From: a bacterium
GTDB lineage: Bacteria > Vulcanimicrobiota > Vulcanimicrobiia > Vulcanimicrobiales > Vulcanimicrobiaceae
NCBI GenBank assembly: GCA_021778415.1
Contig: JAJYCL010000003.1
Span: 1-64,000 of the forward strand
Reading direction: 5' to 3'
Length of the DNA: 64,000 nucleotides
Shown: positions 1,221 through 9,308 of the stretch, piece after piece
Numbering within the stretch: position 1 is the stretch's first letter
How the letters are laid out: each line of letters begins with the position of its first letter
Translations under genes and position numbers: made by a program
Notes under the pieces: generated by a model
Told to the model about the DNA's origin: nothing
Database searches by the model: none
The model's input: only the letters and a program-made list of their open reading frames with translations

Positions 1221-1255
1221 CCCCATCGCACCGACACCGAGGAGTACGACACACT

Positions 1256-1792
1256 ATGACGACGCTCGAAACGGAACGCATCGGACAGCCATTGCCAAAA
1301 ATGTTTGCCGATCTCAAACTCCCGCAACCCGCACTTTTCGTGTGGGTGCGCCACGTCGGTTGAACGTTTTTTGGAGAACCGCTCACGCAGTTGCGTGAGC
1401 TCGAAAGCGCGTTCACCGACGCCGGCATTGCCGTACGATTTTTTGTCATCGGGGATACGGAAAAGGTCAAAGCATTCGCCGAACCCTACGGTATGGCCGA
1501 TCGCTGTGTCGCCGATCCCGACAAGCGCTCGTTTCACGCCATGGGATTCGGGGATTACAACCTTCTCAAAATTTTCACCGATCCGGCGCTCAAAAAGCGA
1601 CGGCTCGAAAATAAAGCCGCGGGCTTTTCGCAGAACTGGGGAGCGACAAAACTCGCTGATGGAGCGCAACTTCCCGGTGCGGCTTTCGTCGATTCGCAGG
1701 GAATCGTTCGCTGGCTCTACGCCGGAAAGCATCCCGGCGATCTGCCGTCGATGAGCGAGATGCTGAAAATCGCAACCGACTTCGCGAAATAA
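1256..1792 (+). CDS. Peroxiredoxin-like (AhpC/TSA, SelL-related) redox protein, probable selenoprotein
   Basis: Reading from ATG 1256 to the stop ending at 1792 gives 178 residues interrupted by one in-frame TGA at 1361-1363, codon 36. Family similarity runs through both halves in the same frame. The segment before the TGA ends FVWVRHVG and the segment after begins TFFGEPLTQL. This matches the AhpC/TSA_2 (PRXL2/SelL-like) active-site region, where the residue after RHxG is the redox cysteine. The TGA therefore sits exactly on the catalytic position and is best read as selenocysteine. The usual second Cys of the CxxC is Phe here. A perfect hairpin follows at 1381-1400. A GAGGAG ribosome site lies about 10 bp upstream of the ATG. 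Likely role: thiol-dependent peroxide or disulfide chemistry in the cytoplasm. The alternative is a nonsense mutation or a sequencing error. Confidence 0.8.
1381..1400 (+). promoter_or_regulatory. Candidate bacterial SECIS hairpin
   Basis: GCTCACGCAGTTGCGTGAGC is a perfect inverted repeat starting 17 nt after the in-frame TGA. With the innermost A/T left open it forms an 8-bp stem with an AGUU apical loop, 25 nt downstream of the UGA. A stem of this size, a loop 16-37 nt from the UGA and a G in the first two loop bases are the published general features of bacterial SECIS elements. It lies inside the coding sequence, as bacterial SECIS elements do. Confidence 0.7.
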
Positions 1793-3083: not shown

Positions 3084-4526
3084 CTATTCCGGGATCATCT
3101 GCCAGCCGGGCTTGGCCTGCAGTTTCCACATAAAAGCTTCATGTAAGAGGCGTTTCGTCCACGCGCCGGCTAAGCCGACATCCAGATCGCACAGTCCAAC
3201 GTCGCGCCCTGTTTCGGGATAGCGTTCAAAATCACGCACAATCGGCACCATCACAATGGACGCAGCAGATCCTGAAAGCAACGATTTGCCCATCGAGGCG
3301 ATGCAGGCTGCGGGCATCTCGCTCATGCGAGCATGGTGCGAGGGTTCACGTCCGGCCACTTGATCGGCGATATTCTGCGCCACGGCACGTCCCATTATTC
3401 CGGATGCCATTCCGGTTCTCGGAGGCGTCGCTTGAACGACCATACCATTCGCCGTTTTCTTTCCGCGCGAAATTGGATGCGGGGGCGCGAACGCGATTCC
3501 TGCAGCATAAAGATTCGCATAATATGGCGACCGATAAAGCGCCGGCCAGTCGCTTGCTTTGTACTCGTCGTATGTTTTCGGCGCGTACTCCGCATCGACG
3601 CGCATAAAACCATTTGGGAGCGTCATCTTTGCGGAAATATCGGTACCGTCGGCAGCAACATATTTCATCGGGATTCCGCGGAATTGCGGAATGAGCATCG
3701 CGAAATCGAAGTTCATTTCACTCGGGTCTCCTCCAACGACATCGTAGGAAATCGAATCCCCGTGAACCGCGCTAACGCCGGCGGCGATAATCGGCTTGAT
3801 CCCGGCCTCATCGAATAACATCCGGACCATACCGGCGCCCGTTACCATCACGCCGCCTTTTTTCGCCTCGATTCCGTCAACCCCGAAATCGCCGGCTTCC
3901 GGCTCATTGGTCAACCACACCAAATCGGCTTTGTCTCGCAGGCCGCGTCGCTGCAAATCCCAATGAACATTCATAATGTATTCAAAGGCAGCGCCTTCAC
4001 ACGTTGCCGCCGGATGTCCAACACCGATTACGATTTTTTGACGCTTCCCTTTTCTCATTTGATCGAGCGATGTGGTATATGCATCGCGAGCGCCTAATGC
4101 ATGTTCAACGGAACAGACGGATTGCGTTGCCCCAACTTTAGGCCCAAGCCCAGGAGTGCCCTCGAAATTGAGATAGGGCCCCGTCGCGTTGAGTAGATAA
4201 TCATAGGCCAACGTTTCCGTATGATCGTCGGCGTAACGAATCGTGACCGTCTGCGCATCCGGCGCAATCTCTTCGGCCCGAGCATCAAAATAGTGAATAC
4301 CGATTTTTTCATAGACGGGCTGCAACTCAAACCACGTTTGCTCCGCCGACATCGTTCCCGTCCCGACCCAAATCAGGCTAGGAAACCACGTAAATCGATT
4401 GCGAGGTGCGACGACGGAAATTTCCGCACTCCCCTTGACGAGATCGGACAGATGGAGTGCCGCAGTATGTCCGGCAAACCCCGCGCCGAGAATGATAATT
4501 TTCGGCAATCCCGATGATGTAGACAT
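3084..4526 (-). CDS. FAD-dependent oxidoreductase, sulfide:quinone oxidoreductase-like
   Basis: A 480-residue pyridine nucleotide-disulfide-type flavoprotein. It has an N-terminal FAD-binding motif GAGFAG at residues 14-19, a second ATG motif near 114 (NATGPYLNF) and a conserved Lys/Arg-rich C-terminal half. Cysteines at 138, 176, 408 and 446 are candidates for the catalytic pair of sulfide:quinone reductases, which oxidise sulfide to polysulfide or persulfide at the membrane and reduce quinone. An alternative is an NDH-2-like dehydrogenase. It starts 35 bp after the TolC gene with a GGGGG ribosome site, and its stop is coupled to the 36-residue gene. Its regulator resembles persulfide sensors, which fits sulfide handling. 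Confidence 0.8.
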   Translation of the reverse strand: MSTSSGLPKIIILGAGFAGHTAALHLSDLVKGSAEISVVAPRNRFTWFPSLIWVGTGTMSAEQTWFELQPVYEKIGIHYFDARAEEIAPDAQTVTIRYADDHTETLAYDYLLNATGPYLNFEGTPGLGPKVGATQSVCSVEHALGARDAYTTSLDQMRKGKRQKIVIGVGHPAATCEGAAFEYIMNVHWDLQRRGLRDKADLVWLTNEPEAGDFGVDGIEAKKGGVMVTGAGMVRMLFDEAGIKPIIAAGVSAVHGDSISYDVVGGDPSEMNFDFAMLIPQFRGIPMKYVAADGTDISAKMTLPNGFMRVDAEYAPKTYDEYKASDWPALYRSPYYANLYAAGIAFAPPHPISRGKKTANGMVVQATPPRTGMASGIMGRAVAQNIADQVAGREPSHHARMSEMPAACIASMGKSLLSGSAASIVMVPIVRDFERYPETGRDVGLCDLDVGLAGAWTKRLLHEAFMWKLQAKPGWQMIPE

Positions 4527-4561
4527 GATAGCCCCCTTAGTTTTTTTTTTACATCGCTACG

Positions 4562-5878
4562 CTATTGCAGTAACCCCGATGCGAAGCGCAATTCCACAAT
4601 AGCGACGCGTAGATCGCCTTGTGCCCGAGCAAGCGTTTCCCGCGCTGCCCGGTCTCCGAGGTCGGCATCTTCCAACTCAAGTTCGGTACCCACTCCGCCG
4701 CGATACCGCAAGGCGGACAAACGGCGCGTCTCGTCGCTCACGGTGACGAGTTTCTGTGCGGCGATCACCTGTTCGGCGGCAATTTGTTCACGCAGATAGG
4801 CTTGACGTATCTGCAATTGGATCCCGCTCTCTAACTGCGTGACACCCAGTTGCGCTTGGTGTAGCCCCGCTTCGGCAAGTGCAATACCATTTCGCGAATA
4901 GCCGTTATCGAAAAGCGTCCACACGGCGGTAAGACCTATTGCGAACTGGTTATGAAAACCGCCGACCACCGCCGGTTGTATGTTTCCATCAGAGATCATG
5001 GCATTGATGTGCGGAGCACGCGAACCCTTTGCAGCGTCGATACCCTTTCGCGCGGCGCGAACGGCAGCACGTGCCGCGGCAAGGTCTCCTCGTTGTGAGA
5101 GTGCTGTTTCGAGCAAGTTCGAAAGGACAAATGATGGTGGCGCCGTCGATAAGGGTTCGGTCAATCGATAGTGATTTGTCAGCGGAACGCCAAGCACCAT
5201 ATTGAGTTGATTTTCCGCCAATTTCACGCCTCCATCCGCTGCAATCATGCGAACCCGCTCATTTGCAAGTTCTGCCTGAGCGCGAAGGAGATCGGCCCTT
5301 GGTATGGTCCCATTCGCCAGAAACAATTTTGCTTCGCTTTCATGTCTGCGCGCCACGTCGACGGCGCGGTCGGCCACCTCACTCATTCGCTGTGCTATGA
5401 GCACACCGACGTAGGCCGAAGACACGGCCGCAATCGTCGCTCCTCGCGCCTGGACAAGTTGCGATTCGGCAGCCGAGAGTCCGGCCGCGGCCTGTCCGAC
5501 ATGCGCATTGCGAATTCCGCCGTCAAAAAGCGTGTATTGCATCGCAAGAATCGGACTGTTTGTCGCATTGACGGCGCTAAAGGGCAGCGCACCAATTGGC
5601 GTACTAAGTTTTGCAACGGTGCTGACGCTCTGATACGAATCCGATAACGCAACGCCAGGTAACAGCGGCGCTTCGGCTTGCCCAAGCTGTGCGCGGGCGG
5701 CAGCGACGCCCACGACGGCACTTGTGTATCCTGGATTCAATCGCAGAGCGATCGCAATCGCCTGGTCAAGACTCAACGATGGGTCGGATACTCCGTTCGT
5801 CGGCGTCGCAGCGCGAAGAGTGCCAACGGAGGCCAGCGTGAGCGTGAGGGCAAGAGCGGCAATGATGTGTTTACGCAC
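4562..5878 (-). CDS. TolC-family outer membrane efflux protein
   Basis: An outer membrane channel of about 438 residues for the RND pump encoded just upstream. It has an N-terminal signal peptide (KHIIAALALTLTLASVGTLRA), then the two OEP repeats with heptad-rich periplasmic helices: LSLDQAIAIALRLNPG near residue 35, and the C-terminal repeat with ALRYRGGVGTELELEDA. I prefer the GTG at 5878, which overlaps the pump gene by 8 bp and starts directly at the signal peptide. An ATG at 5905 would add nine residues. It is part of the operon driven from 10.7 kb. Confidence 0.88.
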   Translation of the reverse strand: MRKHIIAALALTLTLASVGTLRAATPTNGVSDPSLSLDQAIAIALRLNPGYTSAVVGVAAARAQLGQAEAPLLPGVALSDSYQSVSTVAKLSTPIGALPFSAVNATNSPILAMQYTLFDGGIRNAHVGQAAAGLSAAESQLVQARGATIAAVSSAYVGVLIAQRMSEVADRAVDVARRHESEAKLFLANGTIPRADLLRAQAELANERVRMIAADGGVKLAENQLNMVLGVPLTNHYRLTEPLSTAPPSFVLSNLLETALSQRGDLAAARAAVRAARKGIDAAKGSRAPHINAMISDGNIQPAVVGGFHNQFAIGLTAVWTLFDNGYSRNGIALAEAGLHQAQLGVTQLESGIQLQIRQAYLREQIAAEQVIAAQKLVTVSDETRRLSALRYRGGVGTELELEDADLGDRAARETLARAQGDLRVAIVELRFASGLLQ

Positions 5879-8800
5879 GGTCGAGTTCTTTCCATGTCGG
5901 TGCATTCTCGATGGAACGCAACGTGAGGTGTTGTGTGGAAGTCATAACGCCATACGCGCTTTGAATCTCGATCTCGGCCTTCTCCACACGATAGGGGCCG
6001 CTGAGGTAGGCAACCGCATCGCGGGCATCACCTTCGCCACGGAATATTTCCATATCGACATTGATGCTTTCGCCTTGCAGAACGCGCGGCAAAGCCGTCG
6101 ATTCTAACTCGACGCAATCGAGTTCCGGGAAGGTGACGATGCTGCGAACCCGTTCAGACTCAATCCCCGGCGTCGGCATGGATTCCGGCTCAAGCTTACG
6201 CCCGCCGGCGAGAAGACCGTAAAGCAAGGGAATGGCGAGAACGGAAAGCACTGCCGACATCGTCATTCCGAAGACCAGCGCCCAGGCCAGACCACTCCAC
6301 ACCGGGTCGGATGCGATGACGATCGATGAAAGAACGCCTGCGGCCGCGGTGAGGAAAATCGGCCGCGTTCGCGCAGTTGTCGCTTCAACTAACGCTTCAT
6401 TCAGTGGAATGCCTTCCTTGATTTTTGATTCGATAAAATCGAGCAAAATGATCGAGTTTCGAACGACAATCCCAATTAAGGCGATTAATCCAATCATCGC
6501 CGTTGCGGAGAAATAAATCCCAAACGGCGCGAGGAGTGCAAATCCGGGCAAGACGCCGATAACGGCGAGTGGCACCGCAGCGAGAACGACCAATGGGATG
6601 GTGAACGAGCGGAAGCGCGCTACTAACAGGAAGTAGATGAGAATGAAGGCCAAGAGCATTGCGCGACCGAGATCGGCAAAGACACGATTGGTCAGACTCC
6701 ATTCTCCACCCCAAGAGAGCGAGTATCCCGCAGGGAGCGGCTTGCGCATGAGTGCAAGTGCCATATCGATGACGGCATACGTCGAGCTACGACCGGCCAT
6801 GTCCGCACCGACATACGAGACGTTTTGAAAATCATCGCGGTAGAGTGGTCGATCGACATTCGTCGCTCGCGAAGTAACGACGGCCCGTAACGGCACTTGG
6901 GTTCCATTGCGCGAGGCAAGCATAAGCGAGTCAAGCGCAGCGGGATCCCCGCGATATTCTTGACCAAGTCGCAGAACGATTGACGTTGGCCGCGCTTGAT
7001 CGGGTACATGAAGAGTCGAAACGGGCGCTCCATGGATTTCCATTGCCAGCGTTTGAATTGCGTCGGTAACGGCCACGCCAGAAAGCGCCGCCTTCGTCGG
7101 ATCGACGTGCAGATTGAGCGCAGCTGGAAGATCCTTGAAACTCGAATCGATATCGACGACACCTTTTTCATTGTGCATCATCGATACAACGCGAGCGGCA
7201 ATCGATCGCCGAACTTCCGGATCCGGTCCGTAAATTTTGGCCAGAATCGTGTTACGCACCGGTGGTCCGGGCGGAACTTGCAAAATACGTAGCGAGGCTC
7301 CTCGAGCCGTCGCAACGGCTGCAAGCGCGGGACGGATTTGCGCTACGAATGGAGCCGATTCAATCGACCGCTCGTCTTTGGGAAGTAGCGATACGTGAAT
7401 TTCGGCTTGATTCGGTGCGTTGCGAAAGACCGTCCCTTGAAACAGAGCGGCAAGATCGGGCACCGCGTTCGTCCCCACAAAAATCTGATAGGAGCGAATT
7501 TGCGGATAGGTAGCAATTTTTTGCCCGACGGCCGTTGCGATTGCTTCGGTTTGCGCAACGGAGCTCGATGGCGGGGCATCCACGACGACGAGAAACGATG
7601 TCTCGTTCGCATCCGGAAGCATGCGGAATTTTACAAGCTTAAAGATCGGAAGCATGGCGGATACGATGAGGGCAAGGGCAAGTATCGCAAGAAATCTTTG
7701 CCCAAGCTTACGATCTTGTAACATTTTCGCAAGAGAATTTCGAAATGGAAGAATCCATTTCGGCGTTCCGTGCGATGCCTTGGGCTTCTGATTCCGCAGC
7801 AATGCATACGTTGCCCACGGTGTGATCGTAAATGCGATTAGCAGTGAGGCGATCATCGCAATCGGAACGTTTAATGGAATTGGGCGCATATACGGGCCCA
7901 TCATGCCGGTTACAAACAGCATGGGCAGAAAGGACAGCACGACGGTAATCGTTGCAAGAATAGTCGGATTACCAATTTCTTCGACGGCAAGAACTGTCGC
8001 TTCGGCTTTCGAGCGGTGGGGATTCACGACGTGATAATGGCGATGAATGTTTTCTACAATGACAATCGCTTGATCCACCAGCAAACCGAGTGAAAGAATC
8101 AGCGCGAACAGCGTAATGCGATTGATCGACTGACCGTCGATCATGCCGATTCCTAGTGTTACAAAAAGCGTCAGCGGAATTGCCGTTGCAACCACGAGTG
8201 CTTCGCGCCAGCCGAGAACGAGCAGGAGGGCGACGACAATGACGATCGCTTCCAGGAGCCGCTGAATGAGCTCATTAACGGCGAGATTTGCTTTGTTACC
8301 GTCATTTCTCGTGACGGTCAGCGTCACGCCCGGTGGCAAGGCAATCGTTTTCGCCGTAGCAAGAATTGCAGCGGCGACGGTGACGGCGTTGGTCCCCGCC
8401 TTTTTTGCTATAGCGATGCTAACGGCCGGGGCGACACCGCTTGGCGAACCTTTTTGCCCTGCCGCATATCCGAAGCTCGTCGCATTATCGCGAGGGGCGA
8501 GACCCATACTCACCGTCGCCACCTGGGCAAGCATTACTGGCTGCCCGTCGCTCACATTGACGATCTGATTACGAACGCCATCGATGGACGAAAGCGCATC
8601 GCCGGCGCGCACGACAAGACTATTTCCTTGATTGTGGATCGACCCAACGGGTTGCAAGGCGTTACTCGCGTTGAGCGCGGATGCGATCTGACCGGCAGAG
8701 AGACCATACGCCGCAAGTTTTACGGGATCGAGATTGACATTTACGATCTTCGGCCGCCCGCCAAACGTTTGTATCGTGGAGACTCCGGGAATGGCCCGAA

Positions 8801-9308
8801 CTTCGGCGATGACGCGCTGCGCCGTTTGATAGAGCTGCCCACGATTGAATTGCTTGCCATGGAGATTAAGAACGACAATCGGTACATCGTCGACGGAGAG
8901 CGGCGTTATGACCGGATGTGAGGCACCGGGCGGAAGATCGCCCAGATGTGCATTCACTTGATCGTAGAGCGAGACGAACGATTTGCTTGGGCTTTCACCG
9001 ACATGAAAGAGAACCGTTAAGAGCGAGTAATCTTGTGTCGTCGTCGCATAAATATGGGATACACCCGGTACTTCTTGCAAAACGCGTTCGCCGCGTTCGG
9101 TCACCAGCTTCTCAACTTCGCGTGCGGTCGCACCGGAATATTGCGTAAAAATGGTGGCTGCAGGCATGGTGATTTCTGGATTTTCCTGACGCGGGGTCAA
9201 GAGAATCGCAAGAATCCCCCATACGGAAATCGCGATAACGATGGTAGGCGTTAGTTTTGACGTGAGAAAATAGCGAGCCAAGCGCCCGATTCCAGTTAAT
9301 GGTTTCAT
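5871..9308 (-). CDS. RND efflux pump, inner membrane permease
   Basis: A 1145-residue AcrB/HAE-type proton-driven permease. TM1 is near residues 18-38. The large periplasmic loop starts PRQENPEI, and the TM4 region carries the proton-relay LGLLVDQAIVIVENIHRH. A second half with the same architecture ends with FGMTMSAVLSVLAIPLLYGL. The substrate is unknown. The ATGA overlap with the adaptor (9305-9308) shows translational coupling. Unusually, about 110 soluble residues (about 1035-1145) follow the last membrane helix, where most RND pumps end within 10-30 residues. This tail reads as mixed alpha/beta sequence with one Cys. Confidence 0.93.
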   Translation of the reverse strand: MKPLTGIGRLARYFLTSKLTPTIVIAISVWGILAILLTPRQENPEITMPAATIFTQYSGATAREVEKLVTERGERVLQEVPGVSHIYATTTQDYSLLTVLFHVGESPSKSFVSLYDQVNAHLGDLPPGASHPVITPLSVDDVPIVVLNLHGKQFNRGQLYQTAQRVIAEVRAIPGVSTIQTFGGRPKIVNVNLDPVKLAAYGLSAGQIASALNASNALQPVGSIHNQGNSLVVRAGDALSSIDGVRNQIVNVSDGQPVMLAQVATVSMGLAPRDNATSFGYAAGQKGSPSGVAPAVSIAIAKKAGTNAVTVAAAILATAKTIALPPGVTLTVTRNDGNKANLAVNELIQRLLEAIVIVVALLLVLGWREALVVATAIPLTLFVTLGIGMIDGQSINRITLFALILSLGLLVDQAIVIVENIHRHYHVVNPHRSKAEATVLAVEEIGNPTILATITVVLSFLPMLFVTGMMGPYMRPIPLNVPIAMIASLLIAFTITPWATYALLRNQKPKASHGTPKWILPFRNSLAKMLQDRKLGQRFLAILALALIVSAMLPIFKLVKFRMLPDANETSFLVVVDAPPSSSVAQTEAIATAVGQKIATYPQIRSYQIFVGTNAVPDLAALFQGTVFRNAPNQAEIHVSLLPKDERSIESAPFVAQIRPALAAVATARGASLRILQVPPGPPVRNTILAKIYGPDPEVRRSIAARVVSMMHNEKGVVDIDSSFKDLPAALNLHVDPTKAALSGVAVTDAIQTLAMEIHGAPVSTLHVPDQARPTSIVLRLGQEYRGDPAALDSLMLASRNGTQVPLRAVVTSRATNVDRPLYRDDFQNVSYVGADMAGRSSTYAVIDMALALMRKPLPAGYSLSWGGEWSLTNRVFADLGRAMLLAFILIYFLLVARFRSFTIPLVVLAAVPLAVIGVLPGFALLAPFGIYFSATAMIGLIALIGIVVRNSIILLDFIESKIKEGIPLNEALVEATTARTRPIFLTAAAGVLSSIVIASDPVWSGLAWALVFGMTMSAVLSVLAIPLLYGLLAGGRKLEPESMPTPGIESERVRSIVTFPELDCVELESTALPRVLQGESINVDMEIFRGEGDARDAVAYLSGPYRVEKAEIEIQSAYGVMTSTQHLTLRSIENAPTWKELDRA

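Follow-up and report, generated by a model that had tools for sequence, protein, structure and literature searches.

Eukaryotic selenoprotein L (SelL) is a peroxiredoxin-like protein with two selenocysteine (Sec) residues in a UxxU motif and a eukaryotic SECIS element. Among prokaryotes, the family closest to the one considered here is an AhpC/TSA selenoprotein with a UxxS motif, taken together with the SelL-related proteins; the original work on this UxxS protein is reportedly that of Zhang and Gladyshev in 2007. The UxxS form, from the Delta symbiont of Olavius algarvensis, is the one AhpC-TSA_2 (pfam13911/cd02970) selenoprotein listed in reviews of prokaryotic selenoproteins (PMC9312934, PMC13188914). 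Forms of one domain that differ in their Sec motif are treated as separate subfamilies (PMC9312934).

The locus described here lies in a 64,000-nucleotide stretch of DNA (the window) from a genome of Candidatus Eremiobacterota/Vulcanimicrobiota (2.59 Mb, 61 contigs, ~96% complete). Its predicted product belongs to the same Pfam family as the Olavius selenoprotein, with Sec placed first in a CxxC-like motif and a non-thiol residue in place of the second Cys. It is set apart, by the published description of the motif, in having UxxF (UTFF), and it comes from a different phylum. As PMC9312934 separates subfamilies by Sec motif, we count the UxxF form as a new variant within the known AhpC-TSA_2 selenoproteins; the term UxxF is absent from the newer review (PMC13188914). 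With eukaryotic SelL the window protein shares a peroxiredoxin-like thioredoxin fold and an active-site Sec, but it has a single Sec, reads UTFF where the SelL motif is UxxU, and carries an in-frame bacterial SECIS. Bacterial Sec-peroxiredoxins (PF00578, TxxU) have the AhpC/TSA superfamily fold and a redox Sec, whereas the window protein lacks PxxxTxxU and scores 24.1 against PF00578, below the cut-off of 26. A limited literature search linking Eremiobacterota, WPS-2 or Vulcanimicrobiota to selenoproteins found nothing relevant, which is weak evidence of novelty.

RESULTS

An in-frame UGA at the predicted active site of a SelL-related protein

The first-pass annotation had described a single in-frame TGA interrupting an otherwise continuous AhpC/TSA_2 gene, and the reading frame bears this out: it opens with ATG at 1256, closes with TAA at 1790-1792, and has the TGA of codon 36 as its sole internal stop (Table 1). 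Around that codon the protein reads MTTLETERIGQPLPKMFADLKLPQPALFVWVRHVG-U-TFFGEPLTQLRELES....

Table 1. Features of the predicted selenoprotein gene, in window coordinates
Feature	Position	Strand	Basis
Predicted selenoprotein gene, AhpC-TSA_2/SelL-related, peroxiredoxin-like, 178 aa, ATG to TAA	1256..1792	+	Translation with TGA as Sec; PF13911; 21 other genes of the Sec form in the phylum
Shine-Dalgarno-like GAGGAG, 11 nt 5' of ATG	1239..1244	+	Sequence; putative role
Predicted Sec codon TGA, residue 36, RHVG-U-TFF	1361..1363	+	TGA in 22/22 subfamily members; TGC (Cys) in homologue L054
Putative bacterial SECIS hairpin, arms 1381-1388 and 1393-1400, AGUU loop 1389-1392	1381..1400	+	Kept in 22/22; synonymous codons frozen; consistent with the bSECIS model as cited in PMC13188914
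Cys84 codon TGT, invariant, candidate resolving cysteine	1505..1507	+	Cys in 22 Sec forms and Cys form L054; putative role

Two other interpretations of the open frames were rejected. A pair of separate proteins, the second being an ORF at 1391-1792 starting from TTG, does not fit an N-terminal half that is conserved as protein and codons 43 to 48 that are constrained as RNA. A 342-aa antisense ORF (1217-2245), with similar antisense ORFs at other loci, was attributed to codon bias. The gene is flanked by those for a zinc alcohol dehydrogenase (102-1220) and an S1-domain protein (1859-2923), a neighborhood not found around the Sec gene in other genera. No operon partner was found to be conserved across genera, shared neighbors being confined to the ten loci of genus g24. 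Elsewhere in the window, the minus strand at 3084-9308 carries genes for a pyridine-nucleotide-disulphide oxidoreductase, an outer-membrane efflux protein and an AcrB-type RND pump.

The window protein matches PF13911 (AhpC-TSA_2) with 36.7 bits against a gathering cut-off of 27, and all nine members of our alignment (A1) match the family at E <= 0.1. All nine also match the NCBIfam model SelL_rel_redox (NF040769), the best member with E = 2.3e-28. The window protein does so over nearly its full length (E = 1.2e-21), but its 77.1 bits fall below the curated cut-off of 120. The proposed SelL relationship is therefore fair as kinship: the protein is a SelL relative and not a curated NF040769 member.

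An AlphaFold model (pLDDT 88, pTM 0.84) was compared with solved structures by Foldseek. The top PDB match is human prostamide/prostaglandin F (PGF) synthase (PRXL2B; E = 4.6e-6, 16% identity), solved as a C44S/C47S mutant; this is a CxxC enzyme (C44/C47) without Sec and far in sequence. The other PDB matches listed are mostly peroxiredoxins, and a profile search of PDB sequences gave no match at E 0.01. In the model, residue 36 lies just before helix 40-48, which comes after the first core strand (26-33); the predicted Sec36 would sit where the peroxidatic or nucleophilic Cys is usually found.

The second Cys of the usual CxxC is replaced by Phe39, as had been noted. Cys84 is found without exception in the 22 Sec forms and also in the Cys-containing homologue L054, while Cys75 is present in most members and is Ala in the window. 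The earlier description of a one-selenol enzyme holds at the motif, but the invariant Cys84 may act as a distant resolving thiol. Since the canonical peroxiredoxin motif PxxxTxxC/U is absent (the window reads VWVRHVGU), peroxidase activity is not assured; fold and motif suggest a selenol peroxidase or reductase. The protein could be a selenoprotein that works as a thiol:disulfide oxidoreductase or as a reductase like prostamide/PGF synthase instead of a peroxidase, a question of function that leaves the Sec assignment intact. The closest solved fold and the missing PxxxTxxC both lean that way, and members of AhpC-TSA_2 have varied or unknown functions. However, the motif (UxxF) has a single redox residue, which would fit the chemistry of a selenol peroxidase or 1-Cys enzyme more readily than disulfide exchange of the CxxC type, and we consider the reductase function a serious but rather unlikely one.

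The UGA recurs across nine genera

Across the phylum, with 149 genomes searched, TGA stands at the codon-36 column in 22 subfamily genes, the window gene included, from 21 genomes and nine genera. Identity to the window protein extends down to 41% in the nine-sequence alignment, and U[TR]FF is present in all 22 Sec forms. The close relatives in named records are Candidatus Eremiobacterota MAGs. Plasmid searches with the Sec form and with the Cys form gave no match.

One homologue (L054, in genome G128), 43% identical, has TGC, and hence Cys, at the Sec column (RHFGCRFYPE) and no hairpin. tRNA-Sec was not found in its genome, which is 73% complete. The first-pass annotation had placed the TGA at the redox position after RHVG, where relatives would carry Cys or Sec, and had called for a comparison of orthologues at codon 36; the 21 further genes with TGA and the single Cys replacement agree with it. 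Two distant AhpC-TSA_2 proteins (L055 in G135 and L056 in G138), belonging to another family of the phylum, have TGA in a UxxC motif (RHFG-U-IFC). Their hairpins are unlike that of the window, with a GG-type loop. A Cys paralogue (L059) occurs in G138 as well.

The genome encodes the Sec machinery

The window genome has selA, selB, selC (tRNA-Sec) and selD, a complete set for Sec decoding, as the search suggested earlier was meant to establish. The tRNA-Sec scores 68.5 bits and has the anticodon TCA. selA is found at C8:41875-43185 (493 bits). selB begins directly after it (MHIIGTAGHVDHGKS) and is cut off by the end of contig C8 (locus L018). The remainder of selB, its C-terminal part included, is a 551-residue open frame that extends from the end of contig C59 (locus L017), and we infer that the two pieces are one selB gene cut by the assembly. 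selD lies on the same contig as the window, at C12:85315-86238 (353 bits; locus L098, C12:84500-87500). It has an in-frame TGA at the usual Cys/Sec site (LTHLSSCAG-U-AGK) and is itself a predicted selenoprotein gene. A formate-dehydrogenase-like (FdhA-like) gene on C52 (~17.5-18.3 kb; L090/L099) has an in-frame TGA at the usual Sec site (NQARI-U-H), followed by a strong stem with the loop-region sequence GGTCT, known also from E. coli fdhF. Among the carriers, tRNA-Sec is present in the window genome and in 8 of 8 tested genomes with completeness of 90% or more and contamination of no more than 5%, one of them carrying the distant UxxC form; it was not seen in four less complete Sec carriers (69-88%).

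These genes bear on whether the UGA is read as some other amino acid, be it Trp or, through the Sec machinery, Cys, or whether it is a regulated stop, with the hairpin serving as a general readthrough element. Some Sec systems are known to use thiophosphate to insert Cys at UGA, and the evidence at hand is that of sequence. Yet UGA is an ordinary stop in this genome, ending 4 of the 28 long window ORFs, and it also terminates four of the orthologues (L033, L034, L036 and L044). Cys stands at the codon-36 position in L054, and the genome's own SelD and FdhA-like genes have TGA at usual Sec sites. All of this makes decoding as another amino acid, or a regulated stop, very improbable.

A conserved SECIS-like hairpin follows the UGA

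The hairpin (Table 1) reads GCTCACGC-AGTT-GCGTGAGC. From the TGA it is 17 nt to the stem and 25 nt to the loop, and the local MFE over the 45 nt after the TGA is -16.0 kcal/mol. The AGUU loop and the 17-nt distance are as first proposed, whereas the stem, given before as 8 to 9 bp, has 8 Watson-Crick pairs, the adjoining bases being unpaired. Bacterial SECIS elements are modeled with a loop of 3-9 nt, a stem of 4-16 bp, a G within the first two loop positions, a distance of 16-37 nt from the UGA and an MFE <= -7.5 (PMC13188914). The window hairpin agrees with every one of these published constraints (4-nt loop, 8 bp, 25 nt spacing), in favor of the first reading. An Rfam search gave no family match.

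The first reading had also held that such a TGA and hairpin would rarely coincide by chance. The two strands of the window hold 1713 TGA triplets, of which 6 (0.35%) are followed by a hairpin that conforms to the model and has 8 or more Watson-Crick pairs, and the codon-36 TGA ranks first among TGAs interrupting long open frames. The decisive point, though, is conservation in all 22 members. The hairpin is nearly identical across the 22 genes, with an invariant AGTT loop. Synonymous variation is absent at Leu43 (CTC), Ala44 (GCG where Ala), Gln45 (CAG), Leu46 (TTG, 22/22) and Glu48 (GAG); TTG accounts for 18% of the Leu codons in the window. Arg47 uses only CGC or CGT, which keeps a G-C or G-U pair except in the window (A-U) and in L041 (mismatch). 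Codons vary freely just outside the hairpin (Phe38, Phe39 and Glu41) and at the conserved Leu27, Arg32, Arg115, Gly123 and Leu163. As the 22 genes are related, this freezing of synonymous codons is given without a probability.

The fifth stem pair is A-U in the window and G-C or G-U in most others, a single compensatory change. In a covariation test, 124 of 500 shuffles reached the observed score; because the stem is almost invariant, with one double change only, there is too little compensatory variation for a statistical proof of pairing. Outside the hairpin, the Gly35 codon directly 5' of the UGA (1358-1360) is GGT in 22 of 22 genes, possibly a context effect on UGA recoding.

Although a lone in-frame stop in one assembly, and a fragmented one of 61 contigs, would by itself allow a nonsense mutation or a miscall with a coincidental hairpin, we give that reading next to no chance, because every one of the 22 genes retains this TGA and the hairpin while both protein halves are conserved and synonymous codons vary outside the hairpin, so that all the independent assemblies would need a shared error.

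DISCUSSION

The UGA at codon 36 almost certainly encodes Sec, judging from comparative sequence evidence, and the first reading was correct in its central claim. The TGA and hairpin kept in 22 genes, the frozen synonymous sites and a Cys homologue without the hairpin argue for a real selenoprotein gene and against a pseudogene or an error, and the Sec machinery and the fold prediction are in keeping with them. For the reading as a whole, namely one 178-residue AhpC-TSA_2/SelL-related selenoprotein of thioredoxin fold, with UGA 36 decoded via SelB and the hairpin and with a likely redox-active Sec36, we put the probability at about 96%.

Recruited by the hairpin that starts 17 nt after the UGA, SelB and Sec-tRNA would insert Sec at codon 36. 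Sec36, the likely redox-active residue, would then probably reduce peroxide or another oxidized substrate and form a selenenic acid. As the usual second motif Cys is Phe39, resolution of this selenenic acid may fall to Cys84, which would form a selenenylsulfide, or to an external thiol, for instance that of thioredoxin or of a low-molecular-weight compound.

The chances are about even that this is a Sec subfamily apparently confined to Eremiobacterota, as judged from a cross-phylum scan for close peptide patterns only, with no second motif thiol (UxxF), dependent on the remote Cys84 or an external reductant, and keeping Sec in nearly all members though Cys forms are common in the wider family.

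In an ordinary annotation the TGA would cause this gene to be divided in two or dropped. Its recognition provides a conserved and testable selenoprotein candidate for a little-studied phylum for which we found no selenoprotein literature. It also extends the AhpC-TSA_2 group, in which UxxS is the one bacterial Sec form listed, by a putative active site with a lone selenol (UxxF). The Sec and Cys forms, with and without the hairpin, would make a natural pair for studying what Sec gives the enzyme. With strong comparative evidence for a selenoprotein gene, the predicted protein represents a genuine, modest extension of known selenoprotein diversity.
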